Below, piece after piece: positions 1,130-58,700 of a stretch of DNA of 64,000 nt. Below the pieces are notes generated by a model. The model searched no databases and had not been told where the DNA came from. It saw only the letters and a program-made list of their open reading frames with translations. The translations under genes and the position numbers were made by a program. The DNA is taken from positions 2,604,001 through 2,668,000 of the forward strand of contig CAWUHX010000004.1 of NCBI GenBank assembly GCA_963922205.1, given 5' to 3'. The DNA is from Romanomermis culicivorax (lineage: Eukaryota; Nematoda; Enoplea; Mermithida; Mermithidae). Each line of letters begins with the position of its first letter. The stretch's first letter is position 1.

Positions 1130-2378
1130 GCTGTTCTCATGTGAGTGATTTCCATGTGAGTGATTCCCAAGTGAGCGATTCTCAAGTGAGCGATTCCCAA
1201 GTGAGCGATTCCCATGTCAGTGATTCCCAAGTGAGTGATTCCCAAGTGAGTGATTCCCAAGTGAGTGATTCCCAAGTGATTGATTCCCACATGAGCGAAT
1301 TCTCAAATAAGCGAATTCTCAATTGAGTGATTCCCAAGTGAACGATTCCCAATTGAGCGCATTCCCAAATGGGCGATTCCCATCGGGCGATCGAGAATGT
1401 AATAACACTTCTGCAAATTTTCTTCCGTTACCTTTTACTTTTCTTTGCACGTATTTTTCTTTCTTTCGTTTTCTGTGTGTATTACTCATGTTTTCGTTTT
1501 TGTATATTTTTACATTTTCATCTTTTGCCTGTGCTCTCTTTCATTTTATTCCTTCTCGTCATCTAAGTTTCGGCATGCTTGCTTCTTTCATCGTTGTAAG
1601 AGTGGAAATCTTCATGAAAAATATAAACAAAACAATGCAAGAAGAAAGAAAACATCAAGGGAAAACAAATGTAAACAAAAATGGGGACATCAAAAATATG
1701 TGAAAATAACTGGAAAAGCATTGGAAAAAGAAAAAAAAACGTGAACAAAGTGGCAATAAAGAAGAAGTACGACAGAGAAAGCAGCAAGGAAGAAATAAAA
1801 AATAACGTGAAAAAGAACAAGAAAAAGAAAGAATTTGGCGAATAGAAAGAGACGAGTAAAAGCAAAAAACAGATGAAAGTAGATAAGAATGAAGAAAAAT
1901 AAATTAATAGGATAAAGAGCATGCTAAATTCTATAAAAATTACATCGAAAACAATGCTTATTAAAAATGACAACTAGAAATGAAAAAAAGGAAAAAGTAC
2001 ATGACAAGAAAAAAGAAAACGAAAGGAACATGAACAAAAACATAATTGCAACACATAGAACGGAATAAAAAAGAAAAATATACAAAGAAAAATATAAAGT
2101 AAAGAAGGAAAATGTGAAGAAAACGTTATTGCATTCTTTATTGCGCGTTTGGAATCGCTCATTTGAGACTATGCTCATTTGGTGATTCGCTAAATCGGGA
2201 GTTGCTCACATGGGAATCGCTCAATTGTGAATTCAGTCAATGTGGAATCGCTCACATGGGAATAACTCAATTGGGAATTCTCTCACTTGGGAGTTCGCTC
2301 AATGGGGAATCCCTCACATGAGAATCGCTCAATTGAGAATCGTTCACTGGGAAATCGCTCACTTGGGAATATAGCCCT
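1130..2378. mobile_element. Foldback element A, copy 1
   Basis: The left arm (1139-1395) is a run of about 15-bp units, consensus GTGAGCGATTCCCAA; the right arm (2147-2378) has the inverted units. The inverted homology continues inward: the left inner region is pyrimidine-rich and the right inner region is its purine-rich reverse complement (TTTCTTTGTATATTTTTC-type blocks). The whole could fold into one long hairpin. No transposase; the F/L-rich frames are by-products of the pyrimidine bias. No target duplication found. Confidence 0.85.
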
Positions 2379-2570
2379 GTGCATTACTTTAAGTTTCTTT
2401 TATAGTATAAAAAACGAATTTGTTAAAAGCCTGGCGGACTATGTGAGGATTCTTGAATATCATTATGTGTTTGGGTTCGTGCATTTGTAGCTTCCAAGAG
2501 AAATAACACGAAAGTCTGGGATTTCATGGTGAAAAACCAAATATTTTTCGTTTATTTTTCAAATAATCTT

Positions 2571-2635
2571 GGTGGCTGTAGGGAGACAGTAGCCATAATA
2601 GGACGATGGCTATTGTGGGACGGACACAATCGGTA
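2571..2635. repeat. Isolated arm fragment of family D
   Basis: GGTGGCTGTAGGGAGACAGT followed by GGCTATTGTGGGACGG and ending GGACACAATC, the same terminus as D copy 2. No partner arm nearby. Confidence 0.6.
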
Positions 2636-10655: not shown

Positions 10656-11658
10656 GGGCCAGTTGCACTAGCAACTACTGAACTACTGAAAGACTACTTA
10701 AGTTCAGTAGTCGAAAAATTCGGTTGCACCAACGCGTTTTCTACTGAGCTATTCTAGTGGAAGTTCAGTCGTCCAGTAAGCCTTTCTAATAGTCGAAAAA
10801 CGACTACTAGAAAAGCTCCGGTTGCACCAAAAATCTAGATGTTCAGTAGTTTAGTAGTTTCATAATCGTTAACATTAGGTTTTGTAATAGTCAAAAAAGA
10901 CTTTTGATGAACGGTAGTTACAGTCATTTTTGTCAATTTGAATAATTTATTTCGGGTTAATAATGTTGTGGAGTAGCAGAAAGGATGAAGATAATGATAA
11001 CTTGGAAATTCCGCCTAAAAAACGGCTTATTCGACCGCATATTAATTTTTATTTGGATGATTTCGTGTCTAGATTTAGAATAAATCGCGCTACTATGGAT
11101 GGTATACTTAATAAGATAAGACTTGAACTATAGCTATGACACAGATCGAAATTCTCCGCTGAGTCCTAAAGAACAGTTACTGCTGGCTATTCGATTTTTT
11201 GCTATCGGTGCGTTTATGCAAATTGTGGATGACGCTCATGGACCTCGTAAGTCGACAGTTTCCAGGAAAGTTGAAAATATTACACAATTAATTGACCACT
11301 ATTTTGACTCTGTCATTCGATGGCCAGATAATAATATAAAACTAGCAATTTGTTTTTATGCAAAAGGAAAAATGCCATGCGTCATCGGCTGTATGGATGG
11401 AACCCATATTCCCATTAAGGCCTCCGTCAAAAATGAACCCCAATTCGTTAATAGGTTTGTTAGTGCGATTTCTCTGAATTGTATGATGGTATGCGGTTTG
11501 TTTTTGCGATTTCTACTGAACTACTGAACTACAACTAGAAGTGACTACTGAACAACTTTTGACCTATTATTCCGTTAATTGTTGGTGCAACTGGAAAATA
11601 CTGCACTAGTGAACTGCTACTGGTTCACTGAACTACTGAACATTCGTGCAACTGGCCC
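10656..11658 (+). mobile_element. Harbinger-type element F with ACTACTGAA-repeat arms
   Basis: The ends are inverted copies of GGGCCAGTTGCAC. Both subterminal regions consist of imperfect short repeats of the CTACTGAA/AGTTCAGTAG type in opposite orientation. Between them lies a broken HARBI1-like transposase. A CA dinucleotide flanks each end; a clear 3-bp Harbinger duplication is not visible. The catalytic domain is truncated, so the copy is non-autonomous. Confidence 0.85.
10963..11527 (+). pseudogene. HARBI1-like (PIF/Harbinger) transposase, frameshifted and truncated
   Basis: A first frame from ATG at 10963 gives 56 residues ending RFRINRATMDGILNKIRLEL and TAG. The family homology continues in another frame from about 11123: RNSPLSPKEQLLLAIRFFAI, STVSRKVENITQLID, then MPCVIGCMDGTHIPIKA, containing the first catalytic aspartate (GCMDGTH), then EPQFVNRFVSAISLNCMMVCG. 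This order is that of the DDE_Tnp_4 nuclease. The frame then runs into arm repeats, losing the remaining catalytic residues. One frameshift plus truncation make it inactive. Confidence 0.88.
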
Positions 11659-12255
11659 CAGGTGTTATAATCATTACATCTGATATTCGACGAAAAAAAT
11701 ATAAATGGACCTAATCCCATATGCAAGATGGTGAAGTAGAATACTCCACGGAGTAGTCTAATCCAAGGACTAGCCACTCCCCGGAGTAAGCTAATCCACG
11801 GACTAGCTACTCCTCGGATTAGGCTACTCCATGGATTTTATCTTTTGGCATTCCAGAAAGTGGAGTAGTGGTGGAGCTCGTAATACCTGGATTGAACAGT
11901 GGAGTAGTAGCAAAAAGACAAGAAAAAAGTCGTCACATTTTCCACAATGGATTTCTGTTGTTCAGTTCATTATGAGTTCATCGATTTTATTACTTTTATC
12001 TACAAGGCCACTATATCAACTCATAGTCTGCAACACCACACTTTGTCAACTTTATCGGTTCTTTCTGCATTCGTTGTATTGCTTTTTGCTAATTTACATA
12101 ATTTGAAACTTGTGAAATGAGAAACAAAAAACGGGTTGATAATTTTACGGAGCTTAAAATTAATTTTCTAATTGAATCCGCCAAAAGTCGAAAGAATGTT
12201 ATCGAAAATAAAAACACCGACAGTTTGTTTAATAGTATTAAAATATCGGCATAGG

Positions 12256-12513
12256 TCAGCATTGAGAAAGATTTCTGAGAAAATCCAGTGTCAGGCTTCC
12301 ATGCCACTTTGTTGAATTTTCTAGTTCATTATGCAGAATTCCTATCAATTCATGCACTGTTGATTTATTAAATCGATATCGTAGCATGAAGCCAAAATCA
12401 CTATAGATTTCGAATGGATCTGAACTGCGAAAGGGAACTCGTGGAATGTCGTTTGCATGCTCGTTTTCCTCGTCCAGATTTCTTAAAAAATTAATGAAAT
12501 CAATAACTTCCAC
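12256..12513 (-). pseudogene. Harbinger transposase N-terminal remnant
   Basis: Minus-strand frame containing NDIPRVPFRSSDPFEIYSDF, then GFMLRYRFNKSTVHELIGIL and HNELENS. The RYRFNKSTVHELIGIL stretch matches the helical region (F-R-RF-LSK-TV--L) that precedes the nuclease in HARBI1-like proteins; compare RFRINRATMDGILNKI in element F. The nuclease core is missing, probably by internal deletion, and downstream sequence is arm repeat. Confidence 0.65.
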
Positions 12514-12824
12514 ACATATTTATAGTGCTATAAATGAGTCTTTCTCCATCGAATACACCTGCCCTGTACAGGTTTCGAAAAAGACAAGAAAAACGCTTTT
12601 TTTGGTGTGTGTGTGGTCTTGCGAGAAAAGTAATAAAATCGATGAATCAATGATGAACAGCAGAAATCCATTGTGAAAAATGTGACAATTTTTTTGTCTT
12701 TTTGCCATTACTCCATTGTCTAATCCACAGATTACAAACTCAGCCTCTACTCCACTTTTTGGAATGCTGAAAAAGAAAATCCGTGCAGTAGACTAATCCA
12801 GGGAGTAGCTAGTTGGTGGATTAC

Positions 12825-13288
12825 CTTACTGTCGTATGCCCAAATGCACATGGCCAGTGCATTAGAAAAATAATGCTCGATGAGGGGCTCGAACCTTCGA
12901 CCTTCTGCATACAAGGCAGACACGTTATCCAACTGCGCTAACAAACCCATGCGGATTGTTCCGAAACTGTGGTTGTAGAGGTGGTGGTGAGTGCAGGGCA
13001 TGCCGCATAATGAATAGCCAGGTGCGCCACTACAACAACCGTCGTACCTTTGAGGAGGAAAACCCTTGGTATGGTAACCAGTGTTGTATGTCCAAATCCA
13101 TGTGGCCGGCACTTCAGAAAAATAATGCTCAGTGAGGGGCTCGAACCCTCAACCTTCTGAATACAAGGCAGATGTGCTATTCAACTGCGCTAGCAGGGCA
13201 ACATGGACGGTTCCGAAATTGTGGTTGTAGTGGTGGTGGTGAGTGTGGGGCATGCGGCATGATGAATAGTCAGCTGCACCACTACAAC
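12825..13288 (-). mobile_element. Two head-to-tail copies of a tRNA-derived SINE (S2)
   Basis: On the minus strand each unit has tRNA-like promoter boxes: A-box-like TTAGCGCAGTTGGAT and B-box GGTTCGAGCCCCTCA. The units are roughly 230-250 bp and share the tail with CTCACCACCACC. ATTAC lies on both sides (12820-12824 and 13289-13293), and removing the block restores continuity of the E right arm, so the pair inserted as one event. Transcription would be by RNA polymerase III. Confidence 0.8.
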
Positions 13289-13350
13289 ATTACTCCATGG
13301 AGTGGCTACTCCTCGAATTAGACTACTCTTTGCAGTATTCTACTCCAGCT

Positions 13351-14612
13351 TCTGTCATACAAGCCTTAGTGACTCTTTTATACAACAAAAAACAAAATTA
13401 CGTTGCACAGAAATAGCAAAACATAATTTTTGTTCAGCACGTGTTGATTGTTTTCACATGTACACTAGAATTTTTTAATGATCTTTGCAAACATAAATTC
13501 ACTAAGCCAAGCTGAAAATACACTTGTGATGCCTCCAGCAACCTTGAATTCTCAAGGCCCTGTCATACTTTGCCGCAACATACATCATGGCACTGCACCG
13601 GTTGTCCTATTCATACTAAAAAGCCTATAACATACTGATGCATACTATAACATATGTATATGCAGTTCAATCATATTTTTTACATGAATTGTGAATTATG
13701 ACACTTTTTAAGTATTATTTTATCATGCCTCTTAGTAATACATGCAAAACATAGAAATTCTGTGGGGAGTCAGCCAGTACAACCGGCATGTTTTTCCAAC
13801 TTCCAAGCAGCATGTTTTCCAACCTATATTAGCCAAATATGTGAAATTTTTTGCTTGGACAGCATTTTTTAAGGTTTCAATGCTACCCCTTTGAATCAAG
13901 TATGCTTCGTTTGGAGAGATCGTTCTACTACAGTATCATTTTCTTCTGACTTTCTCTTCTCTCTTGATAATTTTTTCGTTCATCATCTTCTGAATCATTG
14001 CAGGGGTTCAGATCTGCTGTGGGGTCAATAGCCCCAAACCCCCCTCTACGTGCATGTATGCTACATTCGGAAAAAAATCATCCTACCTTCTAAAAAATCC
14101 ATGATTGACAAGTTTTGGCCATGCACTCAGAAAATTTCCCAGTAAAATAATTCCTGTAATTCTATCCCAGAGGTATTATTTGACGTTTTCGGAAATATAT
14201 TTTCAGGAGGATTGGAAATATGCGTAGTTCGTTTTTATAAAATATTTGTAAATTGAAAATTCATAAAAAAAATCCACCCTCAACATCGTTTACACAAATC
14301 GTTTACTGTAGAATTTGTGGAGTAAAAAAATTGTGAGGATCACACTATAAGTTATAGAAATATAAAATGATACTTGCTTATCACTTTTTTATTCCCAAGC
14401 AATTTCAGGAAAAGGGACTATAGGTTCTTGTGATTACAAAATTTACAATGGAGATATGAATGTGGAAAATTATATTATTGTTATATTTGTAAAATAGAAG
14501 GAGGGTTGAGAATCCCTCTGGTCATTACCTGTCATAGTCTGTGAGTTGGAGGAGAAGAAGATAGTCGCCAGGAGAGACAGCCAGAGACTGTCCTTAATGC
14601 ACGTGTTTCTTA
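13351..14612. other. No feature recognised
   Basis: Unassigned A+T-rich sequence between element E and the TTA-flanked element. No gene or repeat end seen. Confidence 0.4.
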
Positions 14613-25995: not shown

Positions 25996-27479
25996 GGTAC
26001 CGAGACATTAGAGCACAGGACAATAGAGAGCGGACGTTCAGGTCAAAGCATTTTTCCACCAAGGTGTACTTTTTCTAAAGTTGCGAAAGACACAAAAAAT
26101 CACAAATATTTGACCTTTGAACCTTTTAATAAAATTGTTTCATTTTGTCATTTTTGAATTTATCTTCAATTTCTAACTGGCAGTCAGAATCATACACACG
26201 GTTTTTTGTCAGCTTTTAAAAACTTTGTCAGCTTTTGAAATAAAGCTGCTTGCCTAGTATTCTTTTTTTATAGTTCAAAAACAATATAAAATTCACATTC
26301 ATTGCAGATCACGAAAAGTTGGTCAAAATTGGATGAGCTCTAATGTCCCTGTGCTCTATTGTCCTGCATCCTAATGTTCATGCTCTATTGTCCTGCGGTC
26401 TATTGTCCTGCGCTCTAATGTCTCTGTACTCTATTGTCCTGGGGCCGGTTTCATCAAAGCGACTTAAGCTCCAGCTGAGCTGCAGCTTAACTCTATATGT
26501 TATACCATTGTCTTTAAGCTGCAGCTCAGCTGTAGCTTAACTCGTACACAAAACATCTCGAGAAAGTTAAACTACAGCTGAGCTGCAGCTGAGCGGCACT
26601 TTAACGGCAATGCTATAACATATAGAGTTAAGCTAAAGCTTAAGCTGCAGCTTAACTTTCTCGATATGTTTCGTGTAGGAGTTAAGCTGCAGCTTAACTG
26701 CACCTTAACTTTTCGTGTGAAGAAAATGTTTCCATGGCGCATTAGGTGTGTTTTATCCGAAAACTTTTCGTTCGATTATCGATTTTTTGCACAGTCATTA
26801 GTAGTGGTTTATCGACTATTTCGCTTTGTTGGAACTTTGCCAGTAGCTTGTGCAGGCAGTTCTGGAAGTTTGTTAAACTATTATTTATGTTTATATGTCA
26901 AAATGGACCAAAAAACGAACGAACTAACAAGTGCCAAAACGCTCATCCCCGAGTTTCCAGTACCAGTGAAGTTCCAACCAAAAGCGAAATTTTTTCTAGT
27001 GGATTGAAAAAATCGATAATCGAACGAAAAGTTTTCGGGTAAAGTCCGCGCAATGCGCCATGGAAGCATTTCTTTATACGAAAAGTTAAGGTCAGCTCAG
27101 CTGCAGCTTAACTAGTACACAAAACATATCGAGAAAGTTAAGCTGCAGCTTAAGCTTTAGCTTAACTCTATATGTTATAGCATTGCCGTTAAGGTGCAGC
27201 TCAGCTGTAGCTTAACTTTCTCGACATGTTTTGTGCACGAGTTAAGCTACAGCTGAGCTGCAGCTTAACGACAATGGTATAACATATTTAGTTATGCTGC
27301 AGCTTAAGCTGCAGCTCAGCCGGAGCTTAAGTCGCTTTGATGTAACCAGCCTCTGCCATCTATTGTCGTGCGCTCTAATGTCCGCACTCTGTTATCCTGT
27401 GGTCTATTGTCCTGCGCTCTAATGTACCTGCACTCAATTGGCCTGTGCTCTATTGTCCTGCACTCTATGTCCAGTTACC
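25996..27479. mobile_element. Foldback element B, copy 1 (carries nested element C)
   Basis: The ends are inverted versions of GGTACCGAGACATTAGAGC. Arms consist of units such as GAGCGCAGGACAATAGA and their inverse TCTATTGTCCTGCGCTC. AAAATCGG appears at both borders (about 25989-25996 and 27486-27493), consistent with an 8-9-bp target duplication if the right end extends slightly further. The inner segment is inverted relative to copy 2. Element C occupies 26442-27351. Confidence 0.8.
26442..27351. mobile_element. Palindromic element C, copy 1
   Basis: Terminal inverted repeats begin GGGCCGGTTTCATCAAAG and match the right end. Each arm of about 270 bp repeats AGCTGAGCTGCAGCTTAAC modules separated by AACATATCGAGAAAG and ATATGTTATACCATTG spacers. 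A second inverted pair (about 26700-26780 and 27000-27090, ATCGATTATCGAACGAAAAG) encloses about 200 bp of unique sequence. It interrupts the B right arm. Confidence 0.85.
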
Positions 27480-28689
27480 ACGACAAAATCGGCAATTAGT
27501 TCCATGATGACAGAAGAATTAGCCAAAAATGGTAAGATGAGAGATAGCCGGGCATAGGCTTTCAACCAAGGTTAGCTTCATTACAACAGACGTCATGGCT
27601 TTGGTAACCCTATTTGGATCTAGATCCAATTCGCTAAACTGTTGGTTTCTCCATTTGAGTTGATACTCAGTCAAGACTTCTGCTCCATTGATTTTGAAAC
27701 GGTCGCAGTCAATATTTTATTCGAAATTATGGGGGAGCTCGTCTAATATATTGAATAAACTAATATTTTATGATACAAACTACTTGTTGATCACTCTTTT
27801 CAACAGTTTCAATATAGTCCAAATTCATCTGCTGATTTCTAGTAAGGCTTTTTTACTATAACTCCCACTGCTGCATTTCAAAATGATTGGAGTATAGTAA
27901 GTCTTGAGTTGTCTCGAAATTTAATAAGGAAACCTTACTAGAGCTTTCTAATCGTTCAAAAGATTATTCTAAGATTATATTCATTTTATGCTTAATATAT
28001 TTTTTGCAACATTTATTTGGGAACCATTTTTTTCTGCATTTGTTGGTATAAAAATCTTTTAAAAAGATGATCTGGGGGGAGGAGGTCAGCCAGGATTTCA
28101 CTGGAGATCAGCCAGAGGCCTGCGAGGGTCGGTAGCCCACTAAATCCCCACAAAATATTGAAACAACGATTTCCTGCTATAACTGGATATTTGTGAGCCT
28201 ACTCAGTTGATCATTACCAAACTTAAGGAATTTACGTTAAATGCATCCTGTCAAACAACATCAAGTGCATTACTTGCTAGCTTTTGTGACATATTGAGGA
28301 TATACATACAATAGCAGTCATCCCACACCTATGTAAAATTGAGCAATTGAGCAAAGCCACAATTTGACGAAGAAATACACATTTATTCATTCTTACAATT
28401 TCTTGGTGTCGAATGTGTGTCACGTCCATCAATATTTTTCTTATTGTTTTTTATCACACCAAAAACATCAACGCTATATACCATTCGTATTTACGTAAAC
28501 ATTTATTTATATTTTATTATCACTTGCACAATAATCAGAAGTGGGCGTCAGACATTGGAATCTCGACAGTACCAAGTAAGCCTGCACTTCACCTGGATAT
28601 TATTGTAATGAGTTCTCACTGTCTTACGTAGTAGCTTACATGAAATATCTGGGACAACTCTGATTGCTTTTTCGGTTACAAGTTAGCTT

Positions 28690-35888: not shown

Positions 35889-36917
35889 GATTGTGCATCA
35901 CTATAGCCACCATCACACTAGAGCCACCGTCTCACTATAGCCACCATATCACTACAACCACCACCTCACTATAGCTAATGTATCAAAATAGCCACCAAAA
36001 TCTCACTAGAGCCACCATGACGCATAATAATGATCTCTCTACAGCCACCTGTGTCGCATATTTAAAGGTACCATTACAGCTAATGTCTCAATACAGCCAC
36101 TAGGAACAACCCATAAATTGCAGTATTATAAACAACTTGTACGTGATACTTGCATTGGCATTACATAATGGGCTTTTAAGTATGAGTGTGCGGCAATGAG
36201 TACAGATGCAGCACATTTCATGCCATTTAGAAAAATATCATTGTTGCACGGGGGAGAGCCTCGTCACCTCATTTGCATAAGCTTCGTGCTAAACATAAGG
36301 AGGTCATGTTAACTGCTAAGTGTTGAATAAAAACTTGAAGACCCCAAAATTTTGTACAAGCATTACAAAGACAAAAAGAATTTTTGGGCGGCTGTTTTCG
36401 TATTAACTCAGTTCATGGAACCAAAAATGTTAGTTTGTTCCACAAATGTTGATGGTGACTTGCACTATCTGTTTCACAAAAATCTCAAAAACGACTTGAT
36501 GATAATTCTTTGAGCGAATATTAACTAATGTGTCCCAAAAGGAAGATTCGAAAATGTTCACTGTGCTATAATAAATGACCAAGATAATGATCAAATGGTT
36601 CGAAATCGGTCACTTTTTGCGTCATGTAGCGCATTTGATGGGTTAACAGTTATTTTTGCGAAAATAAACGGATAATTTCGCACAAAATATTTAGTGTGCA
36701 GAAAAACAAGTAATTTCCTGCATTATCTCTTGAGTGGCTCTTCAGAGACATTGGCTATAGTGACACTTTTGGTATGTGACATTGGTGGCTGTAGCGAGAT
36801 CATTATTATGCATCGTGCTGGCTCTAGTGAGATTTTGGTGGCTATTAGCTGTAGTGAAATGGTAGCTGTAGTGATATGGTGGCTATAGTGATACAGTGGC
36901 TATAGTGAGACGGGCCT
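35889..36917. mobile_element. Foldback element D, copy 1, with 8-bp duplication
   Basis: GTTCAGAG lies on both sides (35881-35888 and 36918-36925). The left arm (to about 36105) consists of TCACTATAGCCACCA-type units, the right arm (36720-36915) of the inverse TGGTGGCTATAGTGA. The roughly 600-bp core has no recognised gene. Confidence 0.85.
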
Positions 36918-39392: not shown

Positions 39393-39714
39393 AAAATTCC
39401 ATTGTCCCATATTTTATGTTTAGATTCAATCGCAAATTTGATTCGGCTATTGTTCAGAAACATCGAAAAATTAAAAACACAAACTCTACTAACAAATCGT
39501 ACAAGCACTATCGAGATTGCTTCTATCCGTACATACCTTGCCCAGTGATTAAACCGCTCGGTTAAAACTGATGATTGTTGATTACAGTACTGGCTTTTGC
39601 TTTATCACAATAAATTTGCTGATCATCAGAGTGGTAGTTCAGTCATACATATTTTACTTGGTACTAGTATGTTATTCTCCCACACCATTTTTTGAATATT
39701 TTACACTTTTTGCC

Positions 39715-40174
39715 TTAGGCTCAGGCTCAGGCTAAGGCTAATGCTTAGGCATAGGCTTATGCTTAGGCTAAGGGTTGGGCTTAGGCTAGGATTAGGCTTA
39801 GACTTAGGCTTAGGCCTACACTTAGGCTTAGGCTTAGGCTTAGGCTTAGGCTTAGGCTTAGGCTTAAGCTTAGGCTTAGGCTTAAGCTTAGGCTTAGGCT
39901 TAGCCTTAGGCTTAGGCTTAGGCTTAGGCTTTGGCTTTGGCTTTGGTTAAGGCTTAGGCTTAGGCTTTGGCTTTGGCTTTGGCTTTGGCTTTGGCTTTCG
40001 CTTTCACTTTCGCTTTGGCTTTGGCTTTGGCTTTGGCTTTGGCTTTGGCTTTGGCTTTGGCTTTGGCTTTGGCTTTGGCTTTGGCTTTGGCTTAGGCTTA
40101 GGTTTAGGCTTAGGCTTAGGCTTAGGCTTAGGCTTTGGCTAAGGCTTTGGCTTAGACTTAGGCTTAGGTTTGGG
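39715..40174 (+). repeat. TTAGGC/TTTGGC hexamer array 1
   Basis: TTAGGC units flank a central block of TTTGGC units (about 39925-40095) with TTTCGC variants. All are in the same strand sense as the arrays at 46.1 and 54.1 kb. The long Leu/Gly and Ser/Gln frames are by-products of the hexamer. Confidence 0.97.
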
Positions 40175-43761: not shown

Positions 43762-46700
43762 CTTGAAGAAAAAAATGAAGTCAAAATTCGGTAATTTTTC
43801 ACATTTATGTGCAATGCTGTACAATCAGATAAAAATCAATTTGATGATTTCCCAAATTTTAATTGTTTGATTTTGGATCAAAATTGATATTTTTTTTTAA
43901 TCTGAATTTGGAATCTTTGTAATTGCTCATTTTTCCACGTTTGACAATGAAGATGTATATTAGGATGATATTCATATGAAGTATCGTTCATATTACATAG
44001 CTGAATGGAAGAATGATTTTTAATGCCATGGAGATGAACAAAGATACAAGCTTATTGCTCATATTTTTCACTCTTTAACTACCCTATTTCTTACTGTAAC
44101 TTAATGTGGGTAGTAATTGAACGCTTTTCATTTGCTGTTATTTTTCTACATTTTTGGTTTTTCTAATTGATGTCGCAGAAAGAATGAGCTCTTCAAAACC
44201 TACCACTAAAAATTAAAAAAATTCTGGGTCAAAATTTTTCATTAAAATGATCCGCATAACTCTTCTTTAATGTCATGCTATTAAATTAAGCCAAATATTT
44301 GTCGTTCATTTGCCTCCAAGCCTTGAAACTTTCTAAAACTTTTCCACCTCTTATGTGTTTCACAGCCACTTTTAATTCCTTTTGCAATGTTGATTGTGAC
44401 ATAACTTTGTTCCAATTCATAGCATGGACAAACTCAATCCATACAAAAATAATCCAATGGATTCGGGTAAGGCGAGTTTTCTGGCCACCTGTCCTTTTCA
44501 ATCAGCCATAGAAAATTGTTGCGACACCATGTCATGGATGCTGCGAAAATGTGACAACTGGCACCATCTTGCTGATAAATTCAATCATTGCCAAAGACTT
44601 TGTTACCAATTGTTTTGGCTACAGGCAAGATTTCCTTGATGTAGACATTGCTTGTTACAGTTTCTTTCTTGATGATGACCAATAGACTGAGGACTTTGGA
44701 ACATGCACCCAACCAAACCATAATGCCGGGTCAAAATTTTCTTTTTTGGTAAATGCCATGTTAGCTTTGGCACGGTCAACTGCCCATATTCAAATATTCT
44801 GTGTTTTTAAATGCCATCCAGCCTGAACCACTTTTCGCCAGGAAACAGAATCTGTTCGGTTTCTGTTTTTGTGAAATTGTTCTTTACCCAGTGGTAAAAT
44901 GTTGAGTATTCTTCGGGCAGAATCCTTTGAAATTATCAGTTTGGGGCCCAACAATCGAGTGGTCACTTTTTTCTTTCCATTCAAAAGTCGTGTTGTCATT
45001 TGCACATTTCTCTTGCATCGAGCAACTCTTTTCCGGCCAGATGATATCTTCAGAATAATAACCCTTTTTCCCTATTGATCATTTTCATCAATTGAAATAG
45101 CACATTCCAATTCATCGACAATTGCCAACACTTCCTTCCCATTATTATGCTTAGAAAGTACCAAATCACGCAGACTTTCGGCTTTCAAGTTCGAATAGTA
45201 ACTTTTTGGATGTCTGGTAACTGTCATACGCAGACACAGCCTTTTATCCTTTCAGGGTGTAGGGGGACCTGTGAGGTGAATAGCTGAACAAGTCCTGCTT
45301 GTCAGGCAGATTTTAGTCTGTGGAATGTGCCTCCACTAAGCAGCAAAAAGGATCCAGAGTGTACCTTTCATGTGGGACTTATACGACCATATAGTCCCGT
45401 AAAGCCTGGCTCTTCAGCTACAGGAACAATGGGTACAGGCATAACTTGCTGTATGGTGATGTCTCAAACTACAAAACATATGGACATTTCCAAAAATTCC
45501 TCAAAAACTGTTTCTATGATTCTCCAATAACTTGACTATTGAATAGCTCTCGAAAATGCTACAAACGTATCAGAACACTTTTTTCCGAATTTTCTTCCAA
45601 AAAAACTTTGAGAAGGAAAATTAGAATGTTGTACAGGAAATATAGGCAAATCGTCCATCGCCTTATTCGATTTTGACCTAACAGAAGTCCTATTGAATCA
45701 ATTTTTCCTTCAAATTCTTGATGCAGCTATTCTATATCGATCGATACCAATTTCATGGTCATCGCTCAATTTTTGAATTTATAAGCAGCAAGCACTGTTC
45801 TCAAAACTCTGGAATCGATATTCCACAGAAAGTGGAACCATTACACATCTGTCTAGTTGTAAACATACTTTTGATGCAACCGCCAGTTTATCGCACTGCT
45901 TTCCACCTTTTTCGTACCACCACTTCTTTTCCAATTTATTTAGTTCGCCAGTTTCTTGTAATTCCAGAATAGCCAAATTGATCCTCGCTCTAAAAAAGGA
46001 GCCTAGAAAATGTGCTAAAAAATTAACGCTTATGAATAGAATCCGGCATTTTTCTGCAATTTTAATACCACGATTCTCGAAATAGGCTTAGACATGGGCT
46101 TAGGCTTTGGTTAAGGTTTACGTTTAGGCTTAGGCTCAGGCCTAGGCTTAGGCTTAGGCTTGGACTTAGGCTTGGGCTTAGGCTTGGCCTTAGGCTTGGG
46201 CTTAGGCATAGGCTCAGGCTCAGGCTTAGGCTTAGGCTTAGGCTTAGGCTTAGGCTTAGGCTTAGGCTTAGGCTTAGGCTTAGGCTTAGGCTTAGGCTTA
46301 GGCTTAGGCTTAGGCTTAGGCTTAGGCTTAGGCTTAGGCTTAGGCTTAGGCTCAGGCTTAGGCTTAGGCTTAGGCTTAGGCTTAGGCTCAGGCTCAGGCT
46401 TAGGCTTAGGCTTAGGCTTAGGCTTAGGCTCAGGCTTAGGCTTAGGCTAAGGCTTAGGCTTAGGCTTAGGCTAAGGCTCAGGCTTAGGCTTAGGCTTAGG
46501 CTTAGGCTTAGGCTAAGGCTCAGGCTTAGGCTTAGGCTCAGGCTCAGGCTTAGGCTTAGGCTAAGGCTTAAGCTTAGGCTTAGGCTTAGGCTTAGGCTTA
46601 GGCTTAGGCCTAGGTTTAGGCTTAGGCCTAGGTTTAGGCTTAGGCCTAGGTTTAGGCTTAGGTCTAGGCTTAGGCTCAGCGTTTGTGATGTAAAATTAAT

Positions 46701-49700
46701 AAAATGTTGTCGTGTAAAATTGTGTCGTCGTGTAAAATTGTACAAAAGGTCCAAAAATTAACCTCAAATCCGATCCGAACGGCGTGGCTACGCCGAAGCC
46801 GACGGAATTCAAATTTTGCGATCCGACTTTCATCGTATTGCAAGGCGGTCGACTGTTAATATAGTCGTTGGTCGTCGCCTCCAATATGAAAGCGTATCGA
46901 CCGCTTTTCGACGCCCGAACTTTTTCGATGCCGTCATCGTAGGTAGAAACCATAACCGGTTGCGGTTGCGAGGTCATGAATAGATACATGCGTTCGTGCA
47001 ATTGGACGGTGGACTCCTGCGCTATTAATTATGCAAATTTTCTGACGAGGCAACGTTTCCAAGAGTGTAGATTTTGAGAATGCAAATGCAATAGTGCATT
47101 TGATAGCCCAAATCAATTGGAGTAGTATTACATCAACTGTTTATCCTTGTGTACATTCTTTAAACAGAAATTTGCATAAATGTGCAAAGCTATAGAAAAT
47201 TAACCTTTACTCGATTAGAAGCGTCAATGGTGGAGGAAAACCTGTAACTAATCACACTTGATACAGCCAGCTAGAAAATGTTTTATGTGGCGGCAATAGA
47301 TTAGAGTAATTATAACTTTTCAAACTCCCCAAAAATCAAAAGTGCGTATTTCAGATGGTTTTATATACGGAATCCGCGAACGACTTTTTGATTTTTTCGT
47401 CGAAACTTAAAAAACAAGTGTAATACTGGAAAAAACGTGTCTGAAATTCCTTATGACTCACCAACAAAATTTTGCATCAGAGTGTTATAAATGGTGACGA
47501 AAAAATCAACTTGACGCGGCCTGAAGATTAATACACGAGAGATCGTCTGGATAACAAAAGAAAAGAAGTCATTAAGATTACAATAAAGGAATCAAGTTAA
47601 TCTTGATTACAAAAGACGTGATCGTCTCGATTACAAAAAAAATAATCATCTCGATGACTAGAAACAAAATTAATCATCTTGTACAAAAAAAGGTAATCGT
47701 CTTGATCTTTTTTCGAAATCAAGATGATAATAATCAGAAAAATCGACCAATCAGAATCGAGGAAGTTAGTATATTTTTGAGGTCAGGGGGCCTTGCGGGG
47801 AACGGGGTCGGGAGGTCTGGATCCTCGGCGGGTTTTCATAGACGCCCAGCTGATTCTCGCTGAACCCCAGCAATTTCTGCTCCCCAGCATTGACCAAAAT
47901 GATGGAGGGAAAATCAAAAAGAAGAAAGTGAAAGATGTCATAAGAATGAAAATGACGTTGCTATTCAAGGAGTAACATTAAAAATTTAGAAAAGCAGGCC
48001 AAGCGAATATTTTCACACATTCGACTAATTTAGATTAAGAACTTGCTGGTTGGATGTTAGAAAACCGTGCTTTTGGTAATCTAGGGAAAAAATTCAATCC
48101 GACTCCCTATCCTGGATGACCCCCAAGAGAAATAATATGCTGTGCATGTATGGTCAGGACTTGCTGGAAGAAGGTACCCTTGTTTTTTATGAGCTATGTA
48201 ATGAAGGAGAAGTCATTTTGCAAAGGGAATCTGATGGAAATGTTGGTCAACCTGCTCAGGAACTTGACAAAAAACGAAAATTCTGATCATTTTTCTAGCA
48301 TACTGCATTTATGTGCAAAAACAAGCATTTTTGATGCATTTCTGAGAAATCTAAATAAATAGAAGTTTTTATAAAAAACGAAGATGTTCATCGGATTTTC
48401 GGTGCGAGATATCCGCTCTTTGCTACACCCTCTGTGAAAATCCTCCAGCAAGACCTGACCTTGAAAATCCACTTGGAAGAATAATCCAGTATGCATAGGC
48501 GTAGGAGGAGGCGTAACGCCTTTAGTTACTCTCAAAAATTTTCACCTGCAAGGATACGCGGAGCTGAACGTTCTCGATTCTGATTGGCCGGTAATCTTGA
48601 TTTTTCTCATCTTGATTTCAAACAAAGTAATCGTGATAAAATAATCAAAATTATTCAAGTCGAAAGATATCGATTTTTCCAAGTCATAATAAATCAGCTA
48701 GCATTGATTTTATTTTCTAATGCCTCCCTATGGAACAAAAATTTGTTCTAAAAAAGTAAATTTTGAGCAATAAATCAAAAATGTTGTGAAAAAACACATA
48801 ATTTAAATAAGATCCGGCTCAAATGAAGCAGTTATCTTAAATTCACGATTATCCAAATATGCACGTTTTTATACTTGGATTTTATGACAAATTCGTTTTC
48901 CATATTTTCAAGTAGGAAAAGTTATTTAGTTGACACTGTTTCAAGATTCGATTTTCTATTTTTATAGTTTTTTAATTGTCTTCGAGCTTGGAAAAAGTCG
49001 GATGATGGGAACTGAAACATGAAAATAGGACGTTTTTCCAAGACTTGGAACCTGGAACTTGAAATTCCAAGCATACATGAGTATGGAGAATTTGGTGAAT
49101 ATTGACCCCCAGCAGATCTTAACTGATCCTCAACAGATTGTTGTTGACCCCAAGCAGGTTAAACCGACCAGTAATTATCGAAAAGTTGCCAAAAGAAAAT
49201 GAGTGAGAGATAAGAACAGAAAGTCGTCGATAACTTTTTAAAGATTTTTCTAAACAAAGCATGTCCTGATTCAAAGCCAAAATCTCAAAATTTTGATCAA
49301 GCAACTAGTTTCACTTATTTGACTATAGCTTATTTAATTTAAAATTTTAGACGCGGGAAAAACTAAAAAAGTAGGTTCGACTTGATACACAATTTTCGAT
49401 CAGTAGAAAACTTATTACTGTGGGGAAATGCTAAGGTTTTTCATTTCAACGAGCAAAAAATGTCTGCTATACCTTGAAAAACAGTTCAGTCGATCCATTA
49501 GCCTGTATACCGTATTTGATTTTGGTTTGCTTCGCCAAATCTTCCGCCGATTCTATCGGCGTGCTCATTTTCTCCAACGTCAAAAATGCAGCCAAATTTG
49601 CGGTGTAAGACGAAACGATGATCATCGTAAAAAACCACCATGCACTGCTGGCTATACGTCCGGATACCGATCTGTGAATTTCCCATTACTTTACAATTAA

Positions 49701-52700
49701 CAGGGCACAACCAAGGAGTTTATTTTGGGGTATTCACATGTGAGCGATTTCCCAAGTGAACGATTCTAAAGTGAGCGATCCTCAAGCGAGCGATTCTCAA
49801 GTGAGGGATTCCCGATTGAGCGAATTCACAAATGAGCAAATTCCCAATTCAGCGATTCCAAACAAGCGATGGGAAATGTAATGTTTTCTTCACATTTGCC
49901 TGTTTTACCTCATATTTTTCTTTCTATGTATTTTTTTTCTTTCGTTTTCTGTGTGTATTGTTTATTATTTTCGTTTATGCATGTTTTTACGTTTTCATCT
50001 TTTGTCTATGCTCTCTTTCATTTTTTCTTTTTCGTCACCTCAGTTTTTCTTTTTTTGCTCATGACACAATACATTACAAGTTATCATTTTAGATAAGCGC
50101 AGTCTCCCGTATAATTGTTGAACATTTTGGCATGCTTGAGTCCTTCATCCTTGTAAGTGTGAAAATCTTGATAAAAAATATAAACAAAAGAATACAGAAA
50201 GAAAGAAAGCATCAGCAAAAAGAAAACGTCAACAAAGATGAAGACATTAAGAATGTGTGAAAATAGGTAGGAAAGCATTGGAAAAAGAAAAAACATGAAA
50301 AAAGTGATAAGAAAGAAGAAGCAAGATAGAGAAAGCAGCAAGGAAGAAATAAAAAATAATGTGAAAAAGAACAAAAAAGAAAGAATCGGGAGAATAGAAA
50401 AAAGATAAAGATAGAAAAGTAAAGTAAAAGCAAAAAACTAAGATGAAAATCAGATAAGAATGATGAAAAATCACGAAAGATAGAATTAAATAGGAAATAC
50501 GGCGTTCCAAATTGTATAACAATTACATGGAGATAATGCTTATTAAAAATGACAACTTGTAATGTATTGTTTCATGAGCAAAAAAAGAAAAAAGTAGATG
50601 ACAAGAGAAAAGAAAATGAAACAGAGAAGAAACAGAAGACAAAAATGCCAAAACATACATAAACAAAAACATAATTGCAACACACAGAACGGAATAAAAA
50701 ATAAATATATACAAAGAAAAATATAAGGTAAAGAAGGAAATGTGAAGAAAATGTTATTGCATTCTCTATTGCTCGTTTGGAATCGCCCAATTGGGAATTT
50801 GCTCATTTGTGAATTTGCTCACTTGAGAATCGCTGACTTGGGAATGGACCGTTTTTTTTCTTACCTGGGCAAAATATCTATGCCCTGCTGCATAAACGCT
50901 GATAATGTGAACCACAAACAATTATAGACGGAAAAATCGTTGGAAATTGTGAACGTGCCTTGGCACGCTTCTTCGACTCGCCATTCGTAGGGCGAAAATC
51001 TCGAAACCAAAAATAGAACGACCGAAATGCCGATATAAGCGAAAATGATATACATCCACACTTCGTTGCTCAACGGATGCATGAAAGAAAAAATGGTAAA
51101 TTCCGAAGCGGCCGGTTTACGGATCATGATGCTCAATCCTGTACTCAAAAATGGTTTGCTAAAATCGACGACTTGTTGCCTAGCCCGGGTGATTGTCAAA
51201 GAAGCCACGGCCATGTCCGCTCTCTGTGAAGAAACGCGAGTATATGAAGTCATCTGCACAAAAGTTTGCATGAATAGATTCCATGAGCTTCAGGAGTGAA
51301 AAGCTAAACTCATAAAGACGGATGTACGATAGCATTTGATAGTGTCAGAGGGTCGATTTAGCGATCATACTCTCATTGACACCCATAATCTGTTTTTCTT
51401 GAAATAATGTTAAAAGTAAAATTTGGAAGCAAGTACTTTTTCGCTTTTTTACAATTTCCTGCTGAATCTATGACGCATGCGAATCGAAACTTGTAAGCCT
51501 AACCGACTAACCATTATTGTCAAGCAGAGCCGTGCCTTGGGGGGTGCGAAGGGTACAGCCGCACCGGGCTGCAAAGAATTAGGGGCTGCAAAAACTTAAC
51601 TGACCTAAGTTTGTACTTTGTATACATATATTGTACACTATATGTATGCTAGACAATGCGAACACGAATAAAAATAATAATGTGCACTTCTGTGTAACAG
51701 AAAATTTGATGTTTCATCATTCACTAGGGGCCGCAAGAACTTGAGCTGAACTAGCTTACATACGTGTCATACTGTACTGTACGTGTATGCTCGACAAGGC
51801 AGGAGCACGCCTTTGTGTTTCACTGTGTAAAGTCTGTATCAATAGTTTTACACATTTGTCTGTATGTATCTCAGCACGTATTTAACTGTTTCCTATAATG
51901 TTATCATACTCGCCAGCTTCACGTTGTATTGTATGTAGATTACTGCTGTTTTTTACTAATCTTTGCGGCCTTCCATTTTGCCTTACTTGTGATTTTTAAA
52001 AGTTTTTCACGCATAACTTTTTTGCTAATGTACAAACGCTTGTTACTTTTGTCCCCTTAAGCGATATCAAATCGAGCTCCAGCTTATGAAAGTTCATGTT
52101 ATGATCTTTTGAATAACATACATATTGGTTCTTCGCAACATACACAGTCTTATTCTTTTGCTTTTAAAATCAAACAATTTTGGCATCTGAATTCTGAAAC
52201 ATGGTAAATTCTTAACGAGTTGAATGATTGCTAATCGTTGTTCATTTTTCATTACATAAACGCAGTTATCATGGCAGTATTTTGACTATTTCAAGTTTAA
52301 AAATTATGTTGCTTCTACATAGTAGCTGCATAATGAATTTTCAGCCCAAAAGGCTCGAAAAATATTGCTGTGAATATGTTATTTGTTCGTTTTTAAAATT
52401 TTTTTGTATACTTGTATACGTAGCCACAGTATCGTTCAGTAATGTGTGAATTCAGTTGGACGTAATACACATAGAAAATTTCGTTGCCTCGCCTATGCTA
52501 TTCTTTATGTATCCTGATTCGTGATGCAAGAAAAAAACTTTTTTCTGCAATATGAGATGTGCAACACCAATAATTTCCCATTTAAGACTTATTTCACGTG
52601 AAAATGACTGCATAGACGTTTAGGACTGTATAGATGTATATACCTACTAATTTTAAAAAATAGGGCCGCAAAAATCTACTTCGCACCGGGCCGCAAAAAT

Positions 52701-55700
52701 CCTTGGCACGGCCCTGTTGTCAAGTATTCAATTAAAAATCGTCCAGTAAAAGTTTCATGTGAACCACTTGGAGAAAGGTATTTGTTTTTGTCATTCTTGA
52801 ATTTGAAGCATTTTATAAAAAAGACTATAGATTATGACGCGTCACCCGGAGACTAGACATTAGGACGCAGGACATTAGGATGCAGAACTAAGACCAGAGG
52901 GCACGATGTTGCTAAAAGGCTTCTCAAAAATAACTGAATTTATGGTTTTCTATATAATCAATCATTGAGAAGGTCATGCTGACGGGTATTATGAACTATT
53001 CTGGAGACTAGTCACATGGAAGTGGAATGGGAACTGAAGAATCTTGAACGTCTCCGGGTCAGTAAATATGTGTGACCGGACATTAGAGCGCGGACATCAG
53101 AGCGCAGGCACATTAGAGCGCAGGACAATAGAGCACAGGGACAATAGGCCGCATCTATTGGTTCGAAAAAATTTTAACCAACTTTCCGTGATCTGCCATG
53201 AACGCGAATTTTAAATTGCTTTTGAACATAAAAAAAGAATACTGAGCGAGTAGCTTTATTTCAAAAGCTGACAAAAAATTCTGTGTGTGTGATTCTGAAT
53301 GCGAGTTAGCAACTCAAGATGAATTCGAAAATAAAAAAATGAAACAATTTTATTCGAAGCTTCAAAGGTCAAATATCTGCGATTTTTTTGCAACCTTTGA
53401 CAAATACTCCATGGTGGAAAAATGTTTTGGCTTTGACCTGAACTTCTTCAGAGACACGAAAAAATTAAACAAAGCATTTTTGGCCTGAAATGTACTTATT
53501 TTTCAATGTTTTTATTTTCATTTCTTTATTTTGCTCTGATCTAATTTTTCTGTGCTCTACTGTCCATGCTCTGTCGTCCAGTGCTCCAATGTCCTTGCGC
53601 TCTATTGCGCCTATCTGTTAATGTCCTGCGCTGCATTGTCTCAGTGGCAGACGCAAAAAAAATTTCGGGGGAGGGGCGGAAATTTTTTATTTACAATTTT
53701 TATATTTTTGTTAAATTGTTCGCTTCGACATGCAAACGATTTTTTCTTTTTTTTCTTAAAATTTTTCCTAACTAAGACAAAAGAAAAAAAGAACGAAACA
53801 ACGGGGCCACTGGTGAGAAAATAGAGGATAGATGAAACCAAAAAAATTCGAAAAAAAGTTAATTTTGGCCAAAGTATTTAATTAAGTTTTGTAGATTTCT
53901 GATAATTTGCGTTTAATCATTATCTTGATAATTTTTATTTTTAGACCATGAGTTTAGGAGGCGTGGCTGCTCCCGCCCCTGCATCCGCTACTGTATTTTC
54001 TCTAACGTCCGTGCTCTATTGTCCTGTGCTCTATTGTCCTGCGCTCTTATGTCTCCGCGCTCTAATGTCCGTGCTCTACTGCCCCGCGCTCTAATGTCTC
54101 GGTACCGTAAATATGATGGTTCAGTAAGGCTTGGATTTAGGTTGGCATCAGGCTTAGGCTTAGTCTTTTTTAGGCTTAGGCTTAGGCTTAGGCTTAGGCT
54201 TACGCTTAGGCTTAGGCTTAGGCTTAGGCTTAGGCTTAGGCTTAGGCTTAGGCTTAGGCTTAGGCTTAGGCTTAGGCTTAGGCTCAGGCTTAGGCTTAGG
54301 CTTAGACTTAGGCTTAGGCTTAGGCTTAGGCTTAGGCTTACACTTTTACATTGTGCTAAAAACTTGCATTGCGCAACATATTATTTCAACTTGGTTATGA
54401 GACGTTAGAGTTAATGGGACATTGATGCTAACAGGAAAGTGTCCATGCGACCTAATATCTTGCATCGCAATGTCCTGCATCCTAATATCTCACAGCCGTA
54501 ATGTCCTGTTCATCCTAATGTTCAAACGGTTTTGTACCATTATAGACTGCTTTCTGCAGAAGAGACTGCCGGCTCACCCCAAAGGAGTCTATCGTGTAGC
54601 ATATGCTAAGTCTCCTTTGAGTAAACCTGTATCCTGTTAGAGGAAGTAATTCGGAACTGCCTATAATTTATTAAGTCTATGAAATTCACAGATTTTCCGG
54701 AACCCAAATCGTACCTCTGGGATCGATCACATTCTGGTGTAGCTTCTAAGTTCCATGGTAATGTATTCTACATATTATATGATTCCCGGAATCACTATAG
54801 CCACTGTCTCACTTCAGCCATTAAGATATCAATAGGCATCCCACAATAGCCGACTGTCTCAGTACAGCCATCATCTCGCAACACCCACTAACGATTTACG
54901 AGTGTTTATATGTCATGGAATATACCACCAGTATATTTGACCAGAGATCCCATAGTCATTTCAGGCAACTTTTTAGTATTACCAATTAAGTAGTACTACC
55001 AATCGGTAATCAGCATTCGTAAGAATATCGAAAAAGCGGATATTAGCCTTTTATTGTTCAATATTGGTGGCTGTTGTGAGACAGTGGCTATAGTAGAACA
55101 TTCCCATGTTGTTTGACTGGTGGCCATAGTGGGATATCAACTGATACTTCGGTGGCTAAGGTGAGACAGTGGCTACAGTGGTGCGGTAGTTATTGTGGAG
55201 AGTGGCTGTAGCGAGACACAATCACGTTAACCACCCATAACTCCACCAAAAACGACGGTACACCATTTTAAATCAAGATTTTGAATACATCTCATCGGGA
55301 TCAATCGATCGAAATCAAATTAGCAGCGATACAGACGAAAAAAAAGTCCTGCTGGTTTTGAAAAAAATGGGGTCAACACCGCCAATGTATGCTTAAAATC
55401 CCTAATTGAAACTCTGCTATTATTTGAATCAGCTGATTGGATCTTCAAATTCAAAGAAAAAGCCGCCAAAAAATATTAACCCCGGCCATTAGCTCGCCGA
55501 TCATGCCGTCCCACGTGCCATCTTTTTTCTCGCTGCCAAACTTTCCATCTGGGCTGAGGACTATGTCGTAGTCGAAATTTTCTATTTTCTTCGACAATAA
55601 ATTGATCAAATCCATGGCGTATCCTTCGTATTTGTCTTTGGGGGGCAATTTTTCGTGATTTTCTTTCAGCATCACAAAAGGTCGGCCCTGAAAACGGATC

Positions 55701-58700
55701 AAAAAAGGAAAGAAGGAAAATAATGTATGAAATAGTGCTTGCTTTCGAGTTTCAGTATTTATAAGAAATGCAAAATGTTGTGTATTTAGTAATTATATTA
55801 TGACTATAGGAACTAAATTTCGGGGAACTCTTCATAGTTTGTAACTAGAAAATTCAAAATTTTCATATTTTTCGTACAAGTTTTATTGAATTCCGAGAAT
55901 TATATGCTATAAAAGATAGATTTTTATTAAGATCAGATTGTCCATCATCAGATAATGGCAACCATTTTATGAATGCTTCAAGTCTTATGATGGCCCATTT
56001 AACGCAAGAACTATTGAACTTGAAAGTTCACTCATCACGATTTTCGTAACCCATCAAATGTGGTCCTAAAGAACAGTACATCATGAGGCGTGCTCATCCA
56101 CAGTGAACCACTGCTTTTTCAAATCATTTCACTTTTATTTTAACTGGGTGATCATAAGTCTTCAGCTACAAAGCACGGAATATAAGAAGGACCATTTGAA
56201 AAAATCGAGATATCTTGAAAAAAATCGAGGTGGCATCTTGAAAAAATCAACATGGCATCTTGAAAAAAATCAAGATGGCATCTGGGCAAAAAAATCGAAA
56301 CGTAAGACTTTTTTGATGATTTACCTTTTTTTAAGAGCATCGCAATTTTTTCAAGTGCAACGCATTTCTTCCAGATAATCTTGAAGAAAAATCAAGATGA
56401 CAGCGAAAAAATCGAGATGTCATCTTGAAAAAAAACGAGATGGTATCTTAAAAAGATCAAGATGGTATCCTGACAAAAAATAAAAATCTCATCTTGAAAA
56501 AAATCAAGTCATTAGAGAATGGAAATCAACCAATCAAACGTATTGCTCCGTCCTATATGTTCATATATACGGGTACCATGAATTTGAGGTGACAGCCTGT
56601 TGGCGGAGGGCGGCCTTGGTTTTTGTGGCGGGTGACAGATTCGGGAGGTTATTATTTCGCACAGGGAATCCGATCGACACATTGGTTTTTCATACAAACT
56701 ATTTGTCGAGATTTTCTAGAGAAATGTCAAAAGTGCTTGTTTTTAACCCAAAATGGAGTTATTTCGGACAAGGATTCAAATCTTCGTTTTTGTGTCGACT
56801 TCCTGAGCAGGTAGGGATTGGCTTTGGAACAGCCGAAAAAGTTTAAAATTTTGACTATTTTCCATAATTACTGCATTTTGGCTGAAAACGACTTTTTTTG
56901 ACGTTTTCATGGAAAACATCAAAAATTTGAAAATGTTTGTGATAAATCATAATATTCATCGAATTCCTTGTGCAAAAAAACCCGCCTGCGCCAACCCCTG
57001 TTCAAACCAAGAGCGTCCTCTGCTTGCGTGACCTCAAAAATCATCTTTGATGGATTCTGGTTTATTATAAAAACATAGGAGGTGAAGCAACGCCTTTGAT
57101 TGGCTAGTCTCGGAAATTTTCATCCACTGATATGCCGTCCATGTTAATTTTTTTCAAGATGACATCACGGTTTTTTTATAGGATGCCATCTTGAACTTTT
57201 CCGGGATCTTGATTTTTTCATGATTATCTTGAAAAAACGCGGGGAAAATGAAAAAATTTGCTTGCAAAAAAAATTGTGATGCACATGAAAAAATTTGAAC
57301 CTCAAAAATCTACTACACCTTCATTTTTTTGCGATGGATCTTGAAAAAATGTTGTGCATCGTGTTCGAATTTTTTTCAAGTGATAACAAATTTTTCCAAG
57401 AGGCTTTTCTTGTATTCCGTAACAGAGACTTAAGCATAATGTAAAATATCAATAAAAGTCTTTACCATCAATGAAAATGGGATGAACTAACATCGGAATT
57501 CTTAGCTCCAATAATCCTGAGAAAATCACAGTTCTAGGATTTTTGGAACTTTTCCGAATTTTCAATATTTCCTTAACTGAAGACTGCCGAATAATCCAAA
57601 ATTGATCCAACATTGATTTAAATCATAAAAAAATCATCTCTCTTAGCGTTTTTAATTCAGAACCCAATCGTTCACCAGTATTTTCTCAGAAATTATAAAT
57701 CTTTCGAGAATCTGTCCAAAAATAAACAGCAGAAACCAGTGATTTCACTGCAAGCTATATCAGTGTGAATTTTGAAGTTGTACGAAACTCTGGAATACAA
57801 TATTAAGCAAATTTTTCTATATAATGAAAAATGCTGAACCTTGGATGCATTCTGTTTGATGTGTAGTAGCCGCTTATGGGCCACGTTTTGCAATGTTCAA
57901 GTGATGTTATAATAACCCAACTAATTTAAAAACTTAAAAAATAAAATATTACAGTAAAAGTTTTACGTGAACAACTTTTACGACACTACTAGTCTACTCT
58001 CTTTGAAATGGCAGATACAGCGAACCGATGACAGCAAGTTCAAATCCGAACATGTAGTATGTTACTGTAATCAATGTGAAAGATTTTCACGTCCATAGGC
58101 GGAAAATTTCTTCCAATAATCTGTTCAAATGACCTTACGTATCGGAACAATTACACCAAAATCGAAAATTGATAAGCACAATGATTTCGTCCGATTTTGA
58201 TTTCTTCTTTTTCATGCAGAAATTTACATATTTCCTATAGTAAAAAGCTTTTCACTCAATGAAAATTGCGGGTCAAATTGAACTTACTTTTTTTTGTTGT
58301 TGTATGTGTCATGTAAGAGTAAATGGAATGTGTTTTTTTTCATTCCTGCAATCATTTTATATTAAAAAACGGATGACAGGGTTTTGAATCAAGAGCATTT
58401 CATGAGCCTCACATGGATGTAAGTTACTTGAGTATCTTCAATTGTCTATGAAAAACATAATTTATACTTTCCACTCATAAACATGATCCAAACGTTCAAG
58501 AACTCACCAGCGCAGTTGTTATATTCAACTTTCTGTTAAACGATCGCATAACTTTCGCTCTAGTCCTTTCATAGCTGACCCTAGCTTTGCTTGTCAATAG
58601 TCCAATTTGATCTTTCCAAACGAAGTTCTATAAAAGGTTAGTAAAATGTCAAAATACTTACATTTGCATAGAATCCATTGAAAATTGAGAATCTTATTCA

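Follow-up and report, generated by a model that had tools for sequence, protein, structure and literature searches.

The stretch of the nematode Romanomermis culicivorax analyzed here (C4:2604001-2668000, on contig CAWUHX010000004.1; 64,000 nucleotides, hereafter the window) harbors several groups of transposon-like elements, labeled A to F, K, and L. Three of these, A, B, and D, whose inverted arms are arrays of short tandem units (15-17 bp), are very probably non-autonomous Mutator-like (MULE) transposons of the Foldback type, of the same kind as Phantom, Tm1, and Muta and presumably mobilized by FLYWCH-MULE transposases, with C, F, and E belonging to the PIF/Harbinger type and L and K standing apart. 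The MULE assignment of A, B, and D rests on their anatomy, on the length of their target duplications, and on a further family, M, recovered from the 359-Mb assembly (595 contigs) in which the genome searches were made.

Arms were located by a tandem-repeat scan (TRF) and an inverted-repeat scan of the window. With up to two mismatches allowed, the window holds 21 A, 20 B, and 14 D units against an expectation of 0.05-0.09, a level reached by none of 100 shuffles. Genome-wide, where only exact units were counted, the two orientations returned 793+859 (A), 590+556 (B), 17+18 (D), and 11+8 (L) matches, and reversed-pattern controls none, except a single one for D. In 14 of the 28 A loci examined, the left side has forward units and the right side reverse ones; close forward/reverse matches guided the choice of all 7 B regions and of many among the 20 A regions, so the share of two-armed loci is no genome-wide estimate. 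The D sample comprises 9 regions of 35 D places. A arms carry 2-37 units, the two arms of one element differing by at most 26 (14 loci and the two window copies), and D arms vary little in length (4-9 units). In all three families, two different terminal motifs precede the first unit: GGGTATTC/GGTCTATTC in A, GGTACCGAGACATT/CGTGACCGGACATT in B, and GATTGTGTATCAC/GGGCCCGTCTCAC in D. The spacer of A copy 1, about 0.8 kb, contains no convincing gene.

Target duplications were sought automatically, as flanks agreeing over 9 bp with at most one mismatch, the controls being left and right flanks paired from different copies. The test was passed by 5/16 A copies (controls 3/240), 5/6 B copies (controls 1/30), and 5/9 D copies (controls 0/72). 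It left out D copy 2, the left end of which was not located by motif, and L088, in which a single arm only was detected; the B counts exclude L080, L082, and L084, whose flanks are identical to those of L079. The automatic end finder misplaced the ends of at least seven copies (A copy 1, L008, L068, L087, L091, L093, and B copy 1), and duplications read by hand were counted apart. Hand-reading covered 20 flank pairs (five of A, six of B, seven of D, and two of M); agreement extends over 9 bp in 15 of them, in some cases with a mismatch inside, and is limited to 8 bp in the other five.

Within the window, the best example of a duplication is B copy 2, whose flanking GTAAATATG has no further occurrence on the window's plus strand; hand-reading also recovered 9-bp flanks with one mismatch at B copy 1 (AGAAAATCG / ACAAAATCG), and the flanks of D copy 1 (GGTTCAGAG / TGTTCAGAG) agree at 8 of 9 positions. 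Elsewhere, hand-reading yielded D duplications at L087 (exact) and L091. Support for the 9-bp duplication is weakest in A. Ends are clear at three of its five automatic duplications (L060, L064, and L075), and the remaining two are weak, L072 having a degenerate right end and A copy 2 a T-rich candidate only (GTTTATTTT/GTTTTTTTT); the evidence rests on the former three and on L008 (exact) and L068, which were added by hand. An earlier note on this DNA had described flanks of 8-9 bp at A, B, and D. This is borne out for the families (9 bp, in some cases 8), but not for the A copies of the window itself, since hand-reading found no duplication at A copy 1 and that of A copy 2 is the T-rich candidate.

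The B elements of L079, L080, L082, and L084 lie at one identical site of a very high-copy repeat, for which a first look returned 728 candidates. For L079, the best 40 of these candidate copies were scored as empty sites; in 40 of 40 the flanking repeat, 95-97% like the query, crosses the junction, 39 copies having the query's own length and one being shorter by one base. The units are very numerous, as would be anticipated if the arms were ordinary satellite arrays without defined ends, an outcome that the earlier note had itself named as contrary to its reading. This does not hold: defined ends, inverted pairs, duplications, and the empty site indicate that A, B, and D copies are insertions rather than satellites, and leave the satellite explanation with next to no probability. 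The note's view of these elements as transposons with Foldback-like arms is upheld.

The connection to a MULE enzyme is provided by family M. Tandem 15-bp GACAATTGGGTGAAY units, spaced mostly 15 or 17 bp, occur at four of the five MULE places fetched. In two of these, L094 and L096, both M arms, inverted, enclose the coding region; the other two places have one left arm only and one right arm only within their stretches. The coding part of L096 matches FLYWCH (E 1.2e-12) and MULE (E 5.8e-16) domains, and its Asp-Asp-Glu spacing is 62/129, close to the 69/136 of Muta1, whose catalytic residues were taken from its published description (PMC5225508). Both complete M copies have exact 9-bp duplications (CACTTGATA, and CCCCTCTGCC with 10 bp shared), and both pass the automatic test (mismatched-pair controls 0/2). 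Because M arms enclose FLYWCH and MULE domains, the arm design and a MULE enzyme co-occur in this genome.

This combination has precedents. In its available description, Tm1 of Meloidogyne resembles A, B, and D in its 9-bp duplications, asymmetric end motifs, and inverted arms with a variable number of tandem units of about 14 bp; its autonomous form encodes a FLYWCH-MULE transposase, as M does, and its derivatives are mostly non-coding (PMC3169594). The letters of its unit and ends differ from those reported here, its 39 and 22 elements in two Meloidogyne genomes compare with more than 1000 exact units each in A and B, and the present genome has at least four unit families (PMC3169594). In Aedes aegypti, Muta1, Muta5, and other MULE families are likewise described with 8-9-bp duplications, subterminal tandem repeats of 9-15 bp in 10 of 12 long-arm families, a FLYWCH finger in 13 of 14 families, and derivatives that vary in unit number (PMC5225508); several array-bearing families per genome are thus an already known pattern. 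Muta1 is active, and its letters differ from those of the elements described here (PMC5225508). A review of MULE evolution attributes duplications of 8-10 bp and FLYWCH or SWIM fingers to Phantom (PMC6446971).

An analogy with Galileo of Drosophila suggests what the units of A, B, D, and M do: most likely, they would be bound by the zinc finger of a MULE transposase. Galileo has long, internally repeated arms, and its THAP domain binds repeated sites there, though it differs from these families in belonging to the P-element superfamily (PMC3688188); the same 2013 paper noted that, for Foldback and Phantom elements, binding to arm repeats had yet to be tested. In this model, an enzyme like the FLYWCH-MULE transposase of M would bind the many short arm units and bring both ends together; it would then cut at the terminal motifs, which differ slightly between the ends, and insert the element through a staggered cut 9 bp, sometimes 8 bp, wide. 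M-like enzymes may in this way mobilize A, B, and D.

Several observations weigh against this assignment. The automatic duplication test was failed by 11/16 A and 4/9 D copies, and L095, the fifth MULE place, has no M-type arms within its stretch. Further, the MULE domain (PF10551) gave 122 matches when the best 150 of its 248 candidates were examined. None of these falls in a listed copy of A, B, or D, nor within 6 kb of the clusters covered (60 of A and 33 of B) or of any of the 35 D places (35/35 covered), nor within 10 kb of 100 of the 102 B ends. Among the 100 A ends covered (of 125), one, on C102, has a MULE match 5.3 kb outside, and this A end points away from it. Common ancestry of the A, B, D, and M units was also rejected, their best rotations being no more alike than shuffles beyond chance (p = 0.39 for A-B, 0.86 for A-D, 0.42 for A-M, 0.30 for B-D, 0.03 for B-M, and 0.94 for D-M, the B-M value being nominal only and failing correction for six pairs). 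No p <0.1 came from comparing these units with that of E or with the one published for Tm1.

It is conceivable, if unlikely, that a single transposase, that of M or of a close relative, moves all four families despite their different units. They share duplication length, asymmetric ends, and period, and GGTCTA, perhaps by chance, recurs at one end of both A and M; the lack of any relationship among the units beyond chance speaks against a single enzyme. hAT, Merlin, and P elements also produce 8-9-bp duplications, and it seems rather improbable that A, B, and D derive from such another superfamily. In its favor, the places covered yielded no coding copy of A, B, or D, and 5 of 20 hand-read pairs are limited to 8 bp of agreement; duplication length by itself cannot decide the matter. 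However, the other 15 of the 20 (two of the 20 being M pairs) show agreement over 9 bp, and each feature of the layout has its counterpart in M, Tm1, and Muta.

The unit arrays also bear on how arms evolve. Recent slippage or arm-to-arm conversion was considered and rejected, as units within an arm are no more alike than units re-dealt among arms. Within-arm similarity is 0.754 in A (0.749 permuted; reached in 34/300 permutations) and 0.822 in B (0.819 permuted; 99/300; four elements), and it falls below the permuted value in D (0.761 vs. 0.778; 300/300) and M (0.881 vs. 0.887; 293/300). The lower within-arm likeness in D and M is as expected if ordered arrays were copied as blocks. The unit statistics give no support to recent local slippage or within-arm homogenization, and old events may be hidden by decay.

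C, F, and E are of PIF/Harbinger type (PHIS superfamily), apart from A, B, and D. Identical CAG or CTG (CWG) flanks occur on both sides in 10 of 17 two-ended C copies, whose ends read GGGCCGGTTTCATC; no HARBI-type transposase was found near 100 listed C places. Of the F copies outside the window, L104 is flanked by CTG/CTA, and L102 and L103 have one common flank, with the left end only. The coding relic in F was matched to the HARBI-type open reading frame (ORF) of L099 in one single BLASTP comparison (1e-6); Pfam returned no match to it even at E 10, and solved structures a single match at E 0.18, which is not useful. E, with ends GGCCCGTATGCC, has identical flanking 3-mers in four of eight two-ended copies (TTA twice, CTA, and CAT; hand-read, with a slip of one base in one of them). 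Among 19 E loci, HARBI-type coding sequence was found in two, L049 (PF13359, E 6.1e-24) and L052 (match by tblastn); the window copy is not among these two, and no HARBI-type domain was detected in it with the E-family probe. HARBI1-like relics had been read in both E and F of the window, which agrees with the F match but not with the E copy there, other E copies having one; and the search for transposase-encoding copies that the note had proposed yielded none for A, B, or D among the places covered, and HARBI-type coding sequence for E.

The published marks of this superfamily are CWG for NuwaI, TWA for PIF/Harbinger, and C|TNA|G for NuwaII (PMC4482050). C and F thus resemble NuwaI in their CWG duplications, and E resembles PHIS groups in the HARBI-type DDE protein of some of its copies and perhaps in its duplications, which are often TNA; unlike E, the Nuwa, PIF, and Harbinger groups are presented in the available account with no mention of arrays in the arms (PMC4482050). 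Subterminal arrays are described for the Harbinger element MtPH-A6-4 of Medicago, in that case with 60-bp repeats and in a plant host (PMC2213677).

Two side observations concern this superfamily. For PF13359, nine contigs have matches of equal score and range with a 285-aa open frame, which, from score, range, and frame length alone, suggests a recently multiplied HARBI-type family. Inside the window's E element, a pair of tRNA-Thr-like repeats (12830-13289; ARAGORN tRNA-Thr at 12874-12946 and 13125-13200), 81% alike, has a 72% relative at 60337-60565 (60.4 kb); this is probably a tRNA-derived short interspersed nuclear element (SINE).

L and K form a further group, probably with TA duplication, beside the MULE and Harbinger types. 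L has genuine tandem arrays, and TA, the target duplication of Tc1/mariner elements, is present at five of six readable ends across four copies (hand-read); L probably duplicates TA. A HARBI match near an L copy on C146 was rejected as the L transposase, lying outside that element. Ends of K were looked for and none were found.

The layout shared by these groups is therefore less uniform than proposed. Inverted arms of short tandem units are present in A, B, D, E, and L, as the earlier note had it; C and F have irregular modules in both orientations, with no tandem array found by TRF in their window arms, and "identical layout" is an overstatement. C, F, and E carry modular or tandem arms independently of the MULE elements; since MULE and Harbinger-type elements both have repeated arms, arm repetition arose in at least two superfamilies here. 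Of the two explanations that the note had offered, several transposase systems with repeated arms are upheld by the differing duplications, by FLYWCH-MULE in M, and by HARBI-type sequence in E. The other, one unusual enzyme behind all seven groups, has in its favor the superficial likeness of the arms; duplications of 8-9 bp, 3 bp, and probably TA, with two transposase types linked to them, make it extremely improbable, and we reject it on the differing duplication lengths. We also consider it very unlikely that a host-level cause common to all superfamilies, such as a tendency in DNA repair or one host DNA-binding protein acting on them all, keeps making arrays of transposon ends, so that MULE, Harbinger-type, and TA elements converge.

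Table. Elements of the window and M arms, with positions of the whole window unless stated.
Feature	Position	Strand	Arms	Description
A copy 1	1134..2376	.	1141-1382 / 2149-2370	inverted arms, 15-bp units GTGAGYGATTCCCAA (13 and 10 units)
A copy 2	49728..50850	.	49732-49859 / 50756-50854	ends GGGTATTC... / ...GAATGGACC
B copy 1	25996..27482	.	arrays 26337-26441 and 27359-27472, same orientation; opposite arm ~25996-26032	unit GGACAWTAGAGCGCA; right arm interrupted by C element
B copy 2	53071..54106	.	53078-53147 / 54000-54098	ends TGTGACCGGACATTAG / GGTACCGAGACATT
B copy 2, left 9-bp target duplication	53062..53070	+		GTAAATATG, read in sequence
B copy 2, right 9-bp target duplication	54107..54115	+		GTAAATATG, read in sequence
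D copy 1	35889..36916	.	35898-36018 / 36766-36908	17-bp unit TCACTATAGCCACCATC; ends GATTGTGC.. / ..GACGGGCC
D copy 2	54783..55223	.		short, decayed; no left end by motif
M arms, L094			1378-1556 and 3410-3644 of its stretch	
M arms, L096			301-474 and 2329-2484 of its stretch	
C element	26442..27352	.		NuwaI/Harbinger type; end GGGCCGGTTTCATCAAAGCGACTTAAGC and diverged copy; CTG both sides
F element	10657..11658	+		NuwaI/Harbinger type; ends GGCCAGTTGCAC; CAG both sides; irregular ACTACTGAA motifs
HARBI-type transposase relic in F	11120..11527	+		IGCMDGTHIPI; BLASTP 1e-6 to L099 ORF
E element	11714..13365	.	11785-11931 / 12684-12830 and 11720-11789 / 13290-13359	Harbinger type; genuine arrays of 17-bp tandem units (GGAGTAG..CTAATCC), inverted; eroded GGCCCGTATGCCAGAAGG end
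L element	56176..57419	.	56212-56508 / 57139-57258	23-bp units ATCTTGAAAAAAATCAAGATGGC, mainly in left arm; ends CGGAATAYRAGAAGG; probable TA target
K	47600..48660	.		diverged relative of L; internal 165 bp 73% alike

The C element sits in one arm of B copy 1, which is why the B arrays near 26.3 and 27.4 kb have the same orientation. Other elements adjoin a host gene: exons of an ionotropic glutamate receptor on the minus strand (50861-51289, 55451-55792, and 61319-61651; matches to Lig_chan, Lig_chan-Glu_bd, and ANF_receptor) have B copy 2, D copy 2, L, and a TTAGGC array between them, apparently in introns, and A copy 2 ends beside the first of these exons. TTAGGC is the nematode telomere repeat; its interstitial arrays in the window (39714-40168, 46083-46676, and 54150-54340, the longest being 594 bp) lie no closer than about 0.5 Mb to the ends of the contig. 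Alternating AAAATTT runs with periods of 7 and 15 occupy about 340 bp at 16506-16848.

The elements belong to known kinds, at least two, rather than to one new kind, as compared with the literature by topic and not by sequence. The authors of the Tm1 study cite a proposal that different transposon families acquired Foldback-like arms independently of one another (PMC3169594). Here, a single genome combines several unit arrays unrelated to one another with a matching FLYWCH-MULE gene and with repeated arms in Harbinger-type elements. With several array families and a FLYWCH-MULE gene in the same genome, the idea that the arm units may serve as binding sites becomes directly testable across families.

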